DNA from: a virus
Reading direction: 5' to 3' (one strand)
DNA: 64,000 nucleotides
IMG/VR virus record: IMGVR_UViG_3300028372_000004
Coordinates: 1-64,000 of that record
The notes beneath the pieces were generated by a model. That model ran no database searches. It saw only the letters and a program-made list of their open reading frames with translations, and had not been told where the DNA came from. Numbering within the stretch: the first letter of the stretch is position 1; each line of letters starts with the position of its first letter. The translations under genes and the position numbers were made by a program. Shown piece after piece: positions 5,753 through 35,837 of this stretch.

Positions 5753-5824
5753 ATGGGTGTGGCTCTGGGAGCAACAGAGGTTCCAAACTTCAGTAGCGCG
5801 GTTCGATTCCGTGTGTGCATGCCA
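5753..5824 (+). tRNA. second tRNA-Trp-like element (CCA), altered D-arm
   Basis: The anticodon loop TTCCAAA gives CCA (Trp). T-arm CGCGG-TTCGATT-CCGTG, discriminator G and CCA are present. The D-arm is cut to GCTC-TGG-GAGC, with almost no loop, and the acceptor is weakly paired. It may be decaying, or a variant with changed decoding. A normal tRNA-Trp follows 118 bp later. Confidence 0.5.
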
Positions 5825-5841: not shown

Positions 5842-5943
5842 ATGCGAAAGATTTATATAGCAACATGCACGCATCCAAAGGAACGTGACCGTGAATTGAA
5901 GCGTATGCTAGGCTTTTCACGTATCGGCGCAGATAACATATAG
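5842..5943 (+). CDS. small basic peptide between two tRNA-Trp genes
   Basis: 33 residues (MRKIYIATCTHPKERDREL at the start) with GGAG upstream. Its TAG overlaps the first bases of tRNA-Trp. The pattern resembles the start of a larger nucleotide-metabolism or HNH-type protein, but too little remains to tell. Possibly a truncated gene. Confidence 0.45.
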   Translation: MRKIYIATCTHPKERDRELKRMLGFSRIGADNI

Positions 5944-6016
5944 GGGTGTAGTTCAATTGGCAGAGCAGCAGTCTCCAAAACTGCAAATCGGGGTTCGAGT
6001 CCCTGCACCCCTGCCA
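5942..6016 (+). tRNA. tRNA-Trp (CCA)
   Basis: Acceptor AGGGGTG/CACCCCT, discriminator G, CCA. The anticodon arm GCAGT-CTCCAAA-ACTGC gives CCA. Normal D- and T-arms. Confidence 0.93.
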
Positions 6017-26379: not shown

Positions 26380-26627
26380 ATGGATTTTCTAATCTTTATA
26401 TTGTGTTTTATAGTTTGGTATTGTTGGAATGCCCTCGAAGCAGTCTTAAATGGTGGCTCGGGAAATATGAACACGGCACATGGAGTAGCAAAGAGGTACC
26501 ACACATAACAGTAAGTCGTGGGGGCTGGGTATACGACCCTGCATACTATTACTTCAACGAAATAACTAAGGTATGTGATTATATTATTTTATGTAAACCC
26601 GGCAAACCGTGGCAATGGGATAAATAA
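26380..26627 (+). CDS. membrane protein split over two frames
   Basis: ATG 26380 (CGGAG upstream) gives MDFLIFILCFIVWYCWNALE, a transmembrane helix, and stops at 26506. The -1 frame, open from 26403 to 26627, reads LKWWLGKYEHGTWSSKEVPH and IILCKPGKPWQWDK, clearly coding but without its own good start. A -1 shift at CTTAAAT (about 26445) would give one membrane-anchored protein of about 80 residues. Frameshift mutation and programmed shift cannot be told apart here. Confidence 0.5.
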
Positions 26628-26650
26628 CATTAATACTAGAGGAAAGTAAA

Positions 26651-27328
26651 ATGAAACGCATTCTAGAAATTCACCCGGCAGAGGGTGGTAACGATTCCAA
26701 ACTATTTGTCAACGATCTAGCTGAAGCATACTCCCGCCTATCAACTACCTACGGTTGAAAGTGTGACGTTAAAGTTCATCCAAGCTTTACACAACTCGAC
26801 ATCACTGGTAAAGACCTACGTGGCCTTGATAATGAAGCCGGTGGGCACAGAATACAACGAATCCCTCCAACTGAGAAACGTGGTAGAGTCCACACTTCTA
26901 CGGTTACAGTATCCGTTGTTGACCCCAATCAGTTATCAGTAAACGATGCTTATCTATCCCTCGATGATAAAGACTTCCACGTTGAGTGGTTTTCAGGAAC
27001 CGGTAAAGGTGGGCAACATAGAAATAAAAAGCAGAACTCTTGTCGCCTCACCCACACGCCCACTGGACTTTGTGAAGCTCGTCAAGGTAGGAACCGTAAA
27101 AACAATTATGCTGAGGCCAAGCAAAGTCTATTGACACAGATTAGCGAAATGTTATATAATGACCAGTCTAAACAAACATCACAAATAACTAGGGAACAAC
27201 GGGGCTCTGGTATGCGTGGTGACAAAATAAGAACATATCGCTTTCAGGATGATCAAGTAATTGACCATCAAACAGGTAAGACTGCGAAAGCAACAAAAAT
27301 AATGAAAGGTGGAATGAATCTATTATGA
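26651..27328 (+). CDS. RF1-like release factor with in-frame TGA
   Basis: A 225-codon class I release factor lacking the N-terminal domain. Domain 2 has GGHRIQRIPPTEKRGRVHTS, where PPT matches the P-x-T stop-recognition motif of RF1 (UAA/UAG). The catalytic GGQ lies in GTGKGGQHRNKKQNS. At codon 36 (26756-26758) a TGA interrupts between AYSRLSTTYG and KCDVKV, where family members have Trp; the frame continues unshifted. This differs from bacterial prfB, where UGA needs a +1 shift. If read through, it encodes an RF1-type or rescue factor; otherwise it is dead. Confidence 0.7.
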
Positions 27329-27528
27329 AAATAATACCTGAAAAATTTGACGCAGTGAGAGACGCAATTATATTTGAGGAAGTAGAAAAAGGACTCATGA
27401 TCCTACAAGGGCTTGTGAATGATGGTACTATCTACGATTACGCAATGGCAGAATCAGTCCAGACTGATTATGCTGTTAAGTTTAGGGAAGGCGAAGATTT
27501 TTGGTTAATGATGGGCAAAAACGGATGA
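27325..27528 (+). CDS. small acidic hypothetical protein
   Basis: 67 residues, coupled to the release-factor gene by ATGA. MKIIPEKFDAVRDAIIFEEV, then a helix and a short strand end (DFWLMMGKNG). No family recognised. Confidence 0.65.
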   Translation: MKIIPEKFDAVRDAIIFEEVEKGLMILQGLVNDGTIYDYAMAESVQTDYAVKFREGEDFWLMMGKNG

Positions 27529-27556
27529 TGGTTATTTTATTGTGGAAGCAATAAAT

Positions 27557-27643
27557 ATGTTTGGTGGAACAGAAGAACAATACGAAACTTGTTCAGGGCC
27601 TAGCACTTTTCAAATCTCAAAGCCTAAAAAAATAAAAATGTAA
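27557..27643 (+). CDS. possible small peptide
   Basis: 28 residues (MFGGTEEQYETCSGPSTFQI, then SKPKKIKM). GGAAG lies upstream, and ATAAATA just before the ATG may be a late box. Weak support. Confidence 0.35.
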   Translation: MFGGTEEQYETCSGPSTFQISKPKKIKM

Positions 27644-33424: not shown

Positions 33425-34477
33425 ATGAGTACACCAACTAAGCGTATTGTTTTAGTTACTGATGCGTGGTCACCTCAAGTAAATGGTGTTGTCACGACGC
33501 TCACCCAACTTACGAAACAACTTCTAGACATGGACTATATGGTGGGTATTGTCGAGCCATCCCAGTTTAAATGCTATAGGTTCCCCCTCTATAAAGAAGT
33601 TTTAATGCCATGGAATATGGTTAAAGTATACAGAACTGTAGCTACGCAGATTAAGTTTGCCCAGTACGTCCATATAGCCACTGAAGGGCCTATTGGTCTT
33701 ATGGCACGACTATATTGTCATCGCCACAACATCCCATACATCACGTCATATCATACTCGCTTTCCAGAATATGCTAACGCCCGATGGAGTTTTCTAAAAC
33801 TCTCATGGGGATATGCTGTAATGCGATGGATGCATAACCGCGCATCATCTGTTTTAGTAACTACTAAATCTATGCAAGAAGAATTAACCGAATGGGGTAT
33901 TAATAACACCGTGGTTTGGAACCGAGGGGTTGATACTGGCGTATTTAGACCGGTTCAACATTTACAGAACGGGTCGAGAAGCTTGGACTATCCTGACCTA
34001 CCCAATCTAGGATATGTTGGTCGAGTATCGGTCGAGAAAAACATGGAAGCCTTCTTGGACCTTCCAGATTATCTTGGTAAAAAAATTGTTGTGGGGGATG
34101 GCCCCGACCGTAAACGTTTGGAAAAAAAGTATCCCAATGTGCGGTTTGTTGGATATAAATTTGGCAAGAATCTTGTGGCAGAATACAACAAGATGGATAT
34201 CATGGTGTTCCCGTCAAAAACCGATACCTTTGGGCTTGTAAATTTGGAGGCGATGGCGTGTGGGACGCCTGTTGCGGCCTTCCCGGTTACAGGACCAAAG
34301 GATATCATTCAAGAGGGAGTAACCGGTTCCATGAACGATGACTTGGCAGTAGCTGTCAAGAATGCTTTGCTAATTGATCGCAACCAGTGTATGCTAGCAA
34401 CTCGCAATAACCACTCGTGGGATAATGCATTGCTACCCTATTTGGGTGCAATCGTTGACAAGGAGGGCACATCATGA
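33425..34477 (+). CDS. GT4-family glycosyltransferase
   Basis: 350 residues, GT-B fold. N-terminal VLVTDAWSPQVNGVVTTLTQ has the glycine-rich acceptor loop of GT4 enzymes, and YITSYHTRFPEYA is typical of the MgtA/PimB-like mannosyltransferases. The donor domain shows LGYVGRVSVEKNMEAFLDLP, GDGPDRKRLEKKYPNVRFVG and VFPSKTDTFGLVNLEAMACG (E-x7-E). It transfers a sugar from a nucleotide donor; likely targets are virion or host glycans. Confidence 0.92.
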   Translation: MSTPTKRIVLVTDAWSPQVNGVVTTLTQLTKQLLDMDYMVGIVEPSQFKCYRFPLYKEVLMPWNMVKVYRTVATQIKFAQYVHIATEGPIGLMARLYCHRHNIPYITSYHTRFPEYANARWSFLKLSWGYAVMRWMHNRASSVLVTTKSMQEELTEWGINNTVVWNRGVDTGVFRPVQHLQNGSRSLDYPDLPNLGYVGRVSVEKNMEAFLDLPDYLGKKIVVGDGPDRKRLEKKYPNVRFVGYKFGKNLVAEYNKMDIMVFPSKTDTFGLVNLEAMACGTPVAAFPVTGPKDIIQEGVTGSMNDDLAVAVKNALLIDRNQCMLATRNNHSWDNALLPYLGAIVDKEGTS

Positions 34478-34656
34478 CGCCTATGACGATTATTACAATA
34501 TTGAGCGAAATTTACGAAAATGGGCCAGCATGGGAATATTTTGATTACCCATACTATGCAGGCTTGACTTCCGTAGACTCAAATCAATTGACTTCTGAAT
34601 TTGTTGATGCTGTTCAGCATGTGTGGGACGACGTTGGCAAAATGAAAAAAAATTGA
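34474..34656 (+). CDS. small hypothetical protein
   Basis: 60 residues, ATGA overlap with the glycosyltransferase. Acidic-aromatic middle (ENGPAWEYFDYPYYAGLTSV). The stop precedes the RNA-ligase ATG with no gap. Family not recognised. Confidence 0.65.
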   Translation: MTPMTIITILSEIYENGPAWEYFDYPYYAGLTSVDSNQLTSEFVDAVQHVWDDVGKMKKN

Positions 34657-35313
34657 ATGGATGGAATCTGCCATTACGGAGATGAAACGCTTAGGCGGTT
34701 AAAAAATGAAAACGTACCCTACAATTCCGAAAAAATTCAAGACGTAGAGGTCTACGCCTTTGATAAACTCGATGGCTCTAACATCAGAGCCGAGTGGTCA
34801 AAGAAGCGGGGCTTTTATAAGTATGGCACTCGTAAAAGACTACTTGATGCAAACGAGCAACCGTTTGGTCAAGCGGTTGAGCTTATCAACGACGTATACG
34901 GCCAGCGACTAAATCGTAGATTTACCGACCGTAAGTTTGAAAGAGCAATTGCATTCTTTGAATTCTTTGGACCCAATTCTTTTGCTGGCTTCCATGAAGA
35001 AGATGATACTTTCGATGTTGTTTTATTTGATGTTGCAGTATATCGAAAGGGTATCATGCCCCCTAAAGATTTTCTCAACATGGTGTCTGGATTGAAAGTA
35101 CCCGATCTTGTTCATGTTGGGAAGGCTGATGATTCATTCATCCAGCAAGTACGCAGTGGTCAGCATCCCAAAGTGACTCATGAGGGTGTTGTTTGTAAGT
35201 ATGTTGTTCGTAAAGAACAGGTAGGTATGTTCAAGATTAAAACGCAAGACTGGCTAGATAGCCTTAAAACAAAATGTGGTGATGATGATAAAATGTTTGA
35301 GAAACTAGCATGA
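34657..35313 (+). CDS. RNA ligase (third in the window)
   Basis: 218 residues. Motif I AFDKLDGSNIRAEW (Lys nucleophile), motif III FFEFFGPNSFAG, motif IV HEGVVCKY and motif V MFKIKT. The set fits the Rnl2-like nucleotidyltransferase group but differs from both other RNA ligases. Overlaps the next gene by 4 bp. Together the three ligases suggest repair of several kinds of RNA breaks. Confidence 0.85.
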   Translation: MDGICHYGDETLRRLKNENVPYNSEKIQDVEVYAFDKLDGSNIRAEWSKKRGFYKYGTRKRLLDANEQPFGQAVELINDVYGQRLNRRFTDRKFERAIAFFEFFGPNSFAGFHEEDDTFDVVLFDVAVYRKGIMPPKDFLNMVSGLKVPDLVHVGKADDSFIQQVRSGQHPKVTHEGVVCKYVVRKEQVGMFKIKTQDWLDSLKTKCGDDDKMFEKLA

Positions 35314-35837
35314 CAACAATTGTATTTAAAGGTGTTGATGATCAAATAGAAGTCACTTGCTTCGGTGAAGTGGTGTGTCTAGTCAATGACATTGTAAAGG
35401 AAGAGCTTAAATCTATGTCCGCCATGGATTTCAGGTCAATCGTTCGTAAAAAAATTGTAGATAAATTAGGTGCAGAGTATGAATTCGACCTCAGCGACTT
35501 CTGGTTAGGTGTTGCCGTAATTGAGAGCTTTGGAGATTACGGTCATCCAGATGAAGAGCCTTTACGAGCAATTACATTAAAAGACGCTGATGACGAAATT
35601 GAACTTACATGTTTTGACAAAGTGTTGGGCACAATTGCCAAGCCTACCATCGAAAACTTAAAGGGGTGGAATGGTCTAGATATTGAATATGAAATTGTGA
35701 AAATTATTCGCACAAAAATTGCAGACGAATTTGGTGATAAGTTTGGTTTCACAGCTAATGATTTCTGGTTGGTCGTTGTAGGCTGTGAAGCTCTTTCCAA
35801 ATACCTTAAAGATGAACTTGATCGTTGTGATCAATAA
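35310..35837 (+). CDS. two-repeat hypothetical protein
   Basis: 175 residues made of two homologous halves. Half 1: IVFKGVDDQIEVTCFGEVVC ... FDLSDFWLGVAVIES. Half 2: ITLKDADDEIELTCFDKVLG ... FTANDFWLVVVGCEA. Each half is about 75 residues of beta strand plus helices. Family unknown; the duplication suggests an internal dimer. It overlaps the minus-strand gene at its 3' end. Confidence 0.8.
   Translation: MTTIVFKGVDDQIEVTCFGEVVCLVNDIVKEELKSMSAMDFRSIVRKKIVDKLGAEYEFDLSDFWLGVAVIESFGDYGHPDEEPLRAITLKDADDEIELTCFDKVLGTIAKPTIENLKGWNGLDIEYEIVKIIRTKIADEFGDKFGFTANDFWLVVVGCEALSKYLKDELDRCDQ

Follow-up and report, generated by a model that had tools for sequence, protein, structure and literature searches.

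Why would a phage carry a release-factor gene that is itself interrupted by a stop codon? The question is raised by a gene in a 64,000-base stretch of viral DNA (the window; positions 1-64,000 of the 72,927-base IMG/VR virus record IMGVR_UViG_3300028372_000004). We read this gene as a stop-gated spare class-I release factor, made by tryptophan readthrough of UGA when termination is slow. We regard this reading as probable; the gating is shown by comparative genomics, and the readthrough and the sensing are inferred. The gene lies on the plus strand (26651-27334 at its longest) and was identified as a short RF1-like factor without domain 1, read through UGA, from its reading frame, Pfam matches, relatives and predicted fold. 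It starts with an ATG at 26651, seven bases after a Shine-Dalgarno-like AGGA that can be read from the sequence (26640-26643, plus strand), and runs for 225 codons to a TGA at 27326-27328 with one internal stop, a TGA at codon 36 (26756-26758, plus strand). As the original prediction had stated, the same frame continues unshifted for 189 codons beyond this stop (the surrounding codons are GGT TGA AAG, in the zero frame).

The protein fulfills the PxT criterion of RF1 (prfA) with PPT, the RF1-type codon-recognition motif (residues 72-74; 26864-26872, plus strand), and the GGQ criterion with the peptidyl-tRNA hydrolysis motif at residues 120-122 (27008-27016, plus strand); among 165 short members of the wider family described below, PPT is found in 155 and GGQ in all. 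Pfam PCRF matches the readthrough product at residues 4-87 (6.6e-20), spanning the internal stop, and Pfam RF-1 matches residues 102-206 (1.2e-17), 3' of the stop. Among the NCBIfam models the RF1 models score best (168.6 bits, versus 102 for RF2 and 36 for PrfH), although the curated RF1 cut-offs are missed by far (168.6 versus 400 bits and 166.4 versus 423.25 bits). The prediction of an RF1-type factor with PPT and GGQ therefore holds, with one refinement: residue 4 aligns to RF1 profile position 107 or 115, so that the N-terminal domain 1 of RF1 is missing and the gene begins at domain 2. AlphaFold2 gave a model of the readthrough protein with a mean pLDDT of 93.7 (alignment of 42 rows), and its top Foldseek match is ribosome-bound RF1 (TM-score by query length 0.81-0.83 for the top three). 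The gene product is thus an RF1-type release factor that lacks domain 1; release at UAA and UAG is inferred. In the model, the part before the UGA comprises one strand and one helix (residues 2-33), from which we infer that the 35-residue product made when ribosomes stop at the UGA would be incapable of a release-factor role.

The original prediction would have been refuted by relatives with TGG at this codon and a decaying copy here, and the opposite was found: the relatives carry TGA, and the gene is otherwise intact. Two further IMG/VR contigs (L001 and L002) contain this gene, TGA included, and a first scan of viral contigs returned two relatives (56% and 53% identity) that also have TGA at this codon. 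A second viral scan used an alignment of those two relatives, with the best 80 of 367 kept; because its search patterns sat in the C-terminal half, it did not select for the stop. The codon aligned to codon 36 is TGA in 82/82 viral rows (copies included; best 80 of 367 kept), and these rows contain no other in-frame stop. Four rows are duplicates (L017 and L018 of the window gene, L024 of L004, and L064, which adjoins L063); without them, the codon at the Trp36 place is TGA in 78/78 and that for Trp113 is TGG in 78/78. The place is occupied by tryptophan in 9/9 full-length RF1 rows, as had been expected. The clade of the window gene comprises 92 distinct rows; clustering at 60% identity gives 11 clusters, and the most distant pair shares 40%.

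At the terminal tryptophan, 77/77 other non-duplicate rows have TGG, and the window alone has TGA (27326-27328, plus strand, by alignment): its gene ends TTA TGA AAA TAA, and the counterpart in L003 ends TTA TGG AAG TGA. This TGA is either a second UGA of the same gene or a sign that the last two residues were lost. If it is also read, the coding frame may run to 27334 (stop TAA at 27332-27334) and the product would have 227 residues instead of 225 (to 27325). A UGA that is kept at one tryptophan place and absent from the others (except for the last one in the window) excludes decay and speaks against a general use of UGA for tryptophan. On this comparative evidence, the internal UGA is neither an error nor part of a decaying gene.

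The stop also stands in a particular context. In 102 distinct genes with a single zero-frame UGA, the base after the UGA is A in 76, G in 15, C in 11 and U in none, as compared to U in 46/146 TGA ends of ORFs of at least 150 aa in the same loci; a +4 U reduces readthrough in E. coli, according to the part of PMC5289835 that was available. Directly 5' of the UGA, 65 of the 102 genes have the codon GGC and 19 have GGT. Synonymous-codon identity, corrected for amino acid and pair relatedness (3880 pairs, 92 loci), is 2.0-2.9 times the expectation at codons +1 to +5 and 1.6 times at codon -1, whereas it is 1.0 times in the median 7-codon window of the gene; the seven highest windows start between codons -3 and +3. 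In the window gene, the six codons 3' of the UGA (26759-26776, plus strand) mark this clade-wide maximum of synonymous constraint, where +4 is never U. As shown by comparison, the stop at codon 36 is selected for, site-specific and set in a leaky context. Three criteria for programmed readthrough (a conserved stop, a leaky context, and an open frame under selection after the stop) are met at the level of sequence, with the readthrough product itself inferred.

A second, weaker peak of constraint is found at codons +26 to +32 (most columns 1.3-1.8), and the two constrained places pair with each other: nucleotides 12-20 after the UGA and a segment about 50 nucleotides on form the best of 3569 registers, with 67.1% paired (register median 37%; 1000 shuffles reach at most 62.2%). 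The stem was counted on 41 equal-length rows hand-picked from 62, with eligible rows such as L045 and L060 left out, and it is therefore taken as a property of only part of the clade. In the 41 rows, 71.2% of the cells of stem 11-21/62-72 are paired, versus 62.7% shuffled (0/500), and both sides vary somewhat at 9/11 pairs (2/500 shuffles). Slid registers reach at most 53.4% paired; however, the slide by +1 is slightly ahead in both-sided cells (34 versus 31) and in further pair types (23 versus 19), and kinship of the rows alone can beat shuffles without any structure. In 74 genes, the 95 nucleotides after the UGA form more stable folds than other parts of the gene do (mean z -1.69) and are the most stable stretch of all in 40.5%. 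Single folds show local hairpins beginning 3-6 nucleotides after the UGA in L004, L046 and L097, and the stem itself in L021, L028 and L093 and partly in L036; L032 favors another fold, and the single fold of L003 has no such stem. RNAalifold gave no consensus structure for 65 clade rows, and 29 of them gave only a small unrelated one. The window's own mRNA has no stable structure or hairpin after the UGA (z +0.68; -0.5 within its gene). We conclude that a putative RNA stem after the UGA is conserved in part of the clade and that the window copy is without it.

Stops in this stretch are not confined to the clade of the window gene. A scan with an alignment including huge-phage members found at least 488 relatives (best 80 kept), and 29 loci came from one scan of bacterial and archaeal genomes; gene classes were assigned by separate N-terminal and C-terminal profiles in three frames. 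The resulting 178 distinct entries contain 9 ordinary full-length RF1 genes, 2 entries without the N part (L005 and L016, left out) and 167 short genes (these counts describe the kept sets, i.e. the best 80 of 367 and the best 80 of at least 488, and many rows are related). An early stop that must be recoded, which we call a gate, is present in 160 of the 167 short genes. The zero-frame gates include TGA (102 genes), TGA+TGA (11), TGA+TAG (2) and TAG (2), and the +1-frame gates, 42 in total, include CTT-TGA (28), CTT-TAG (13) and CTT-TAA (1). One phage gene (L170, 1501-2155) has a zero-frame UGA followed by a CUU-UAG +1 shift, both of which are needed. Six short members are without a stop (L012, L159, L172, L173, L177 and L193). 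The gene of L120 (~4001, Nannocystis pusilla Na p29) shows two one-base differences from its sister species, at and before the CTT-TGA site; these are probably assembly errors, and L120 was counted as neither gated nor ungated. Where the position of the gate relative to the start codon could be assigned, it falls at codons 35-54; the gates of huge-phage members lie past codon 36 (e.g. 39+52, 44, 46+54 or 52), which implies that the gate moved or arose more than once.

An SD-like four-mer is found directly 5' of the CUU in 35/40 +1 sites, against a background rate of 8.7% per codon position over the C-terminal part of these genes, and the stop with its next base after the CUU is UGAC in 18 sites, UAGC in 12, UGAG in 8, UAAC in 1 and UAGT in 1. 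The Trp36 column holds leucine in 28/28 +1:TGA rows and 10/13 +1:TAG rows, so the CUU mostly occupies the Trp36 place. The +1 forms come from records of Nannocystis, Minicystis, Pyxidicoccus and other myxobacteria and from viral contigs. Close short relatives were found in 10/377 Myxococcota genomes (E <= 1e-40), and all ten genes are of the +1 form (8 CTT-TGA and 2 CTT-TAG; some are already in the main counts). The zero-frame UGA is also found in Thalassospira and Rhodovibrio records (bacterial or prophage origin not settled). Full-length RF1/RF2-type genes coexist with the short factor in four bacterial genomes. As controls, samples of matched genes (open frames of at least 356 codons) had inside stops in 0/10 cases for Alphaproteobacteria and 0/46 for Gammaproteobacteria, and the 39 of these 56 genes that are readable by the profiles are all uninterrupted. 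Comparison across these records shows a stop codon in this stretch to be selected for in many lineages, putatively via two recoding routes.

In a tree of 174 rows (quick IQ-TREE; many deep branches are weak, and rows marked long are uncertain), the RF1 rows form one separate clade with support 100, and the gate labels require at least 25 changes. The +1:TAG label takes 12 changes for 13 rows, and as few changes were seen in 130/500 shuffles, which implies that UGA and UAG swap readily at +1 sites. The closest pair with differing stops is 71% identical. A gene of a Hahella MAG (L098, 4001-4661) has TGG at codon 36 followed by CTT TAG C and the +1 frame; in the tree it is placed next to the window gene (row L001), within the clade of zero-frame UGA genes (support 88), and readthrough has likely been changed to frameshifting there, as far as the sequence can tell. 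We note that this UAG-gated RF1-like gene is in a bacterial contig and has no clear SD-like element.

How would such a gate work? With the host release factors working well, ribosomes would stop at the UGA of codon 36 and only a 35-residue fragment would be made. If termination at UGA became slow, with RF2 short or overloaded by phage translation, a near-cognate tRNA-Trp would read the UGA, and the tryptophan at codon 36 would restore the RF1 residue and allow the full factor to be made. With its RF1-type PPT motif, the spare factor would then terminate at UAA and UAG and take the UAA load off RF2, and the RF2 thus freed would let readthrough drop again. This would be an indirect feedback loop, because a factor with an RF1-type motif is not expected to read UGA; the 13 CTT-TAG relatives would be directly autogenous. 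Four steps are inferred: the readthrough itself, the insertion of tryptophan, the response of the level to termination capacity, and termination by the protein at UAA/UAG. Against this explanation stand the absence of expression, peptide or ribosome-profiling data, the lack of a stable structure after the UGA in the window's own mRNA, and the six short members without a stop. UGA readthrough tuning a factor for UAA/UAG, as the original prediction had put it, is likewise an inference for which no experiment was found.

A broader proposal takes in the whole family: the short RF1-like proteins of phages and bacteria would be termination-failure response factors that use their own stop as the sensor (UGA, UAG or UAA, by readthrough or a +1 shift, sometimes two in series) and are made only when stops go unread, whichever release factor is short. 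We put this forward tentatively, as a proposal that may just as easily fail as hold and perhaps a little more so. That UGA and UAG are freely interchanged at +1 sites would be consistent with a factor that, in spite of its PxT motif, can act on all three stop codons. The gene set as a whole would suit a backup factor for failing termination, by analogy with ArfA, which is made when tmRNA rescue fails and resembles the present case in logic only (a backup gene senses failure of the main pathway; PMC10107115, seen in part), the protein and the gate being unrelated.

The sensing part is open to challenge, as a fixed low readthrough rate without sensing would yield the same sequences. UGA is commonly regarded as the leakiest of the stop codons, and a constant low leak could serve as a dosage limiter that keeps a potentially harmful factor scarce. 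The constraint on the +4 base and the 3' codons fits a limiter of this kind, and the accessible text of PMC12421855 reports that excess RF2 and, more mildly, excess RF1 slows the growth of B. subtilis. A weak promoter or ribosome site would, however, be a simpler way to the same end, and the gated members employ UGA, UAG or UAA in two recoding modes, yet always a stop codon, which points to termination as the variable; we therefore think it unlikely, if still conceivable, that the gate does no more than limit dosage. A different kind of regulation would be a switch timed by the phage, in which the phage supplies a tRNA that increases UGA reading late in infection and thereby turns the factor on. 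The tRNA search did find two tRNA-Trp(CCA) genes in the window: an ordinary one with a 5-bp anticodon stem (5942-6016, plus strand) and an odd one (5753-5824, plus strand) whose 27-43 mismatch (A27.A43) leaves only 4 bp in the anticodon stem, and which also has a weak acceptor stem and a very short D loop. In the ordinary one, position 24, which we take to be the Hirsh-type site in tRNA-Trp, is G24 by eye, and no Hirsh-type A24 was seen. Mismatched 27-43 pairs have been linked to UGA reading in other tRNAs, and such tRNAs are discussed as RF2 competitors at UGA, in the portion of PMC13092985 at hand; similar 27-43 mismatches are found near the gene in L026, L072 and L093. It is possible but unproven that the odd tRNA-Trp helps UGA reading, and we treat this as a lead only. 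A UCA anticodon is found in 0/497 tRNAs (L001-L205 and the window, overlapping loci included), the odd tRNA-Trp has its weak acceptor stem against it, and a switch of this kind cannot serve the UAG- and UAA-gated members, all of which makes it improbable that the phage times the factor in this way.

If UGA were a general tryptophan codon in these phages (code 4), the second UGA at a tryptophan place in the window gene would be accounted for; however, the 33 window ORFs of at least 200 aa end in TAA (18), TGA (12) and TAG (3), only the release-factor gene among the window ORFs spans a TGA convincingly, TerL was found in 14/16 phage records with the best match free of inside stops in all 14, and Trp113 is TGG throughout the 78 rows, so a changed code is very hard to uphold. 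(ORF coverage under codes 11, 4 and 15 was undecisive, since dropping a stop lengthens ORFs anyway.) Selenocysteine insertion has a similarly slim chance: a UGA followed by a 3' hairpin does occur in part of the clade, but there is no match to any Rfam element, SECIS or other, in 26400-27600 of the window (E up to 5), the place is tryptophan in RF1, and sister genes use UAG or a +1 shift, with TGG at the place in Hahella. A broken gene or a sequencing error, which a conserved domain interrupted by a stop would at first suggest, can hardly be maintained when the same base recurs in two further contigs and all 82 rows, the rest of the gene is conserved, and the codons around the stop are under synonymous constraint. 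Equally little remains of the notion of two polypeptides with the second begun afresh after the UGA. An in-frame ATG, GTG or TTG follows soon after the UGA in some relatives (4 to 148 codons on, in 78 rows), but the first such start in the window comes 125 codons on, past GGQ, and is therefore not a conserved feature, and protein conservation is unbroken across the stop.

Two other TGA-containing frames were seen. A second TGA-spanning window ORF (34474-35349) was rejected, as an ATG directly follows the TGA and the downstream part alone matches RNA ligase. In record G011 (that of L089), a TerL match comes in two pieces (337772-339156, minus strand), the second with one in-frame TGA, perhaps owing to an intron or a split gene.

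With the window gene read as a stop-gated spare factor, a close bacterial comparison is the autoregulatory +1 frameshift of prfB (RF2), likewise a release-factor gene with an early in-frame stop that needs recoding; the cassette of an SD-like element, CUU and a stop is shared by myxobacterial and some phage relatives. The window gene is of RF1 type and in the zero frame, without a shift, and the criterion of CUU plus stop with a +1 shift is not met. This bears out the claim that its arrangement is not that of prfB, but UAG, UAA and +1 sites do exist in the wider family. The stop of the window gene also falls within domain 2, at codon 36 of a protein without domain 1, unlike that of E. coli prfB, which is at codon 26 of a full-length gene (PMC5009743, in part). 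The CTT-TAG of 13 short relatives is a further difference, as the RF1-specific TAG is absent from the prfB motif in what could be consulted of PMC12421855; the same text, which surveys annotated prfA and prfB genes, gives no programmed frameshift in prfA, and the short genes may be absent from its survey. Full-length RF1 (prfA) is the nearest match in sequence and structure and shares PxT and GGQ, but has domain 1, has no inside stop in 56/56 matched genes, and forms its separate clade. PrfH (RF-H) also lacks domain 1 (PMC1586002, as far as its text was at hand; the profile has 200 positions), but the window protein reaches only 36.3 bits versus a cut-off of 166.65.

The class-I release factor of Mimivirus and Megavirus (R726/mg280) is also viral and combines UGA readthrough with a frameshift at UAG or UAA, but it is of eukaryotic/archaeal type, in viruses of amoebae (PMC3521657, consulted in part); L170 repeats this combination (UGA readthrough and a CUU-UAG shift) in a bacterial-type factor. 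In the literature searched, only this giant-virus eRF1 is similar. The sections available of a 2016 recoding review (PMC5009743) cite the giant virus as an example in which readthrough and frameshifting are combined. According to this review, zero-frame UGA readthrough was considered for RF2 before the gene was sequenced, none of the bacterial RF2 genes sequenced carries a zero-frame UGA this early, and an equivalent UAG arrangement in an RF1 gene is unknown. No phage release factor of this kind appears in the parts of PMC6514570 and PMC7824862 that were accessible. The original prediction held this logic to be undescribed, and we likewise found no published description of a stop-gated short RF1-like family in the open-access literature (titles and abstract openings; subscription papers and preprints were outside the scope). 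As a single protein family contains a zero-frame UGA in an RF1-type factor, a UAG version and a +1 form, it becomes possible to test directly how recoding gates evolve and what the gate senses. The family also suggests that phages treat a shortage of release factors as a hazard deserving a dedicated backup, and annotation pipelines would split such genes or call them broken.

The neighborhood of the window gene fits a phage that defends translation. The window contains 21 tRNA genes and three copies of RNA ligase (PF09414; 23129-23791, 24508-25692 and 34657-35310), which can be viewed as a tRNA/RNA repair set around the release factor; these ligases belong to a family other than RtcB. No RtcB, the neighbor expected for PrfH, was found near the short factors among 10 window and 10 bacterial neighbor proteins (part of the neighbors only), and the 10 bacterial neighbor proteins revealed no shared partner gene beside the short factors. 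tRNAs with a CUA (amber) anticodon lie a few kb from the release-factor gene in L038, L062, L139, L142 and L149.
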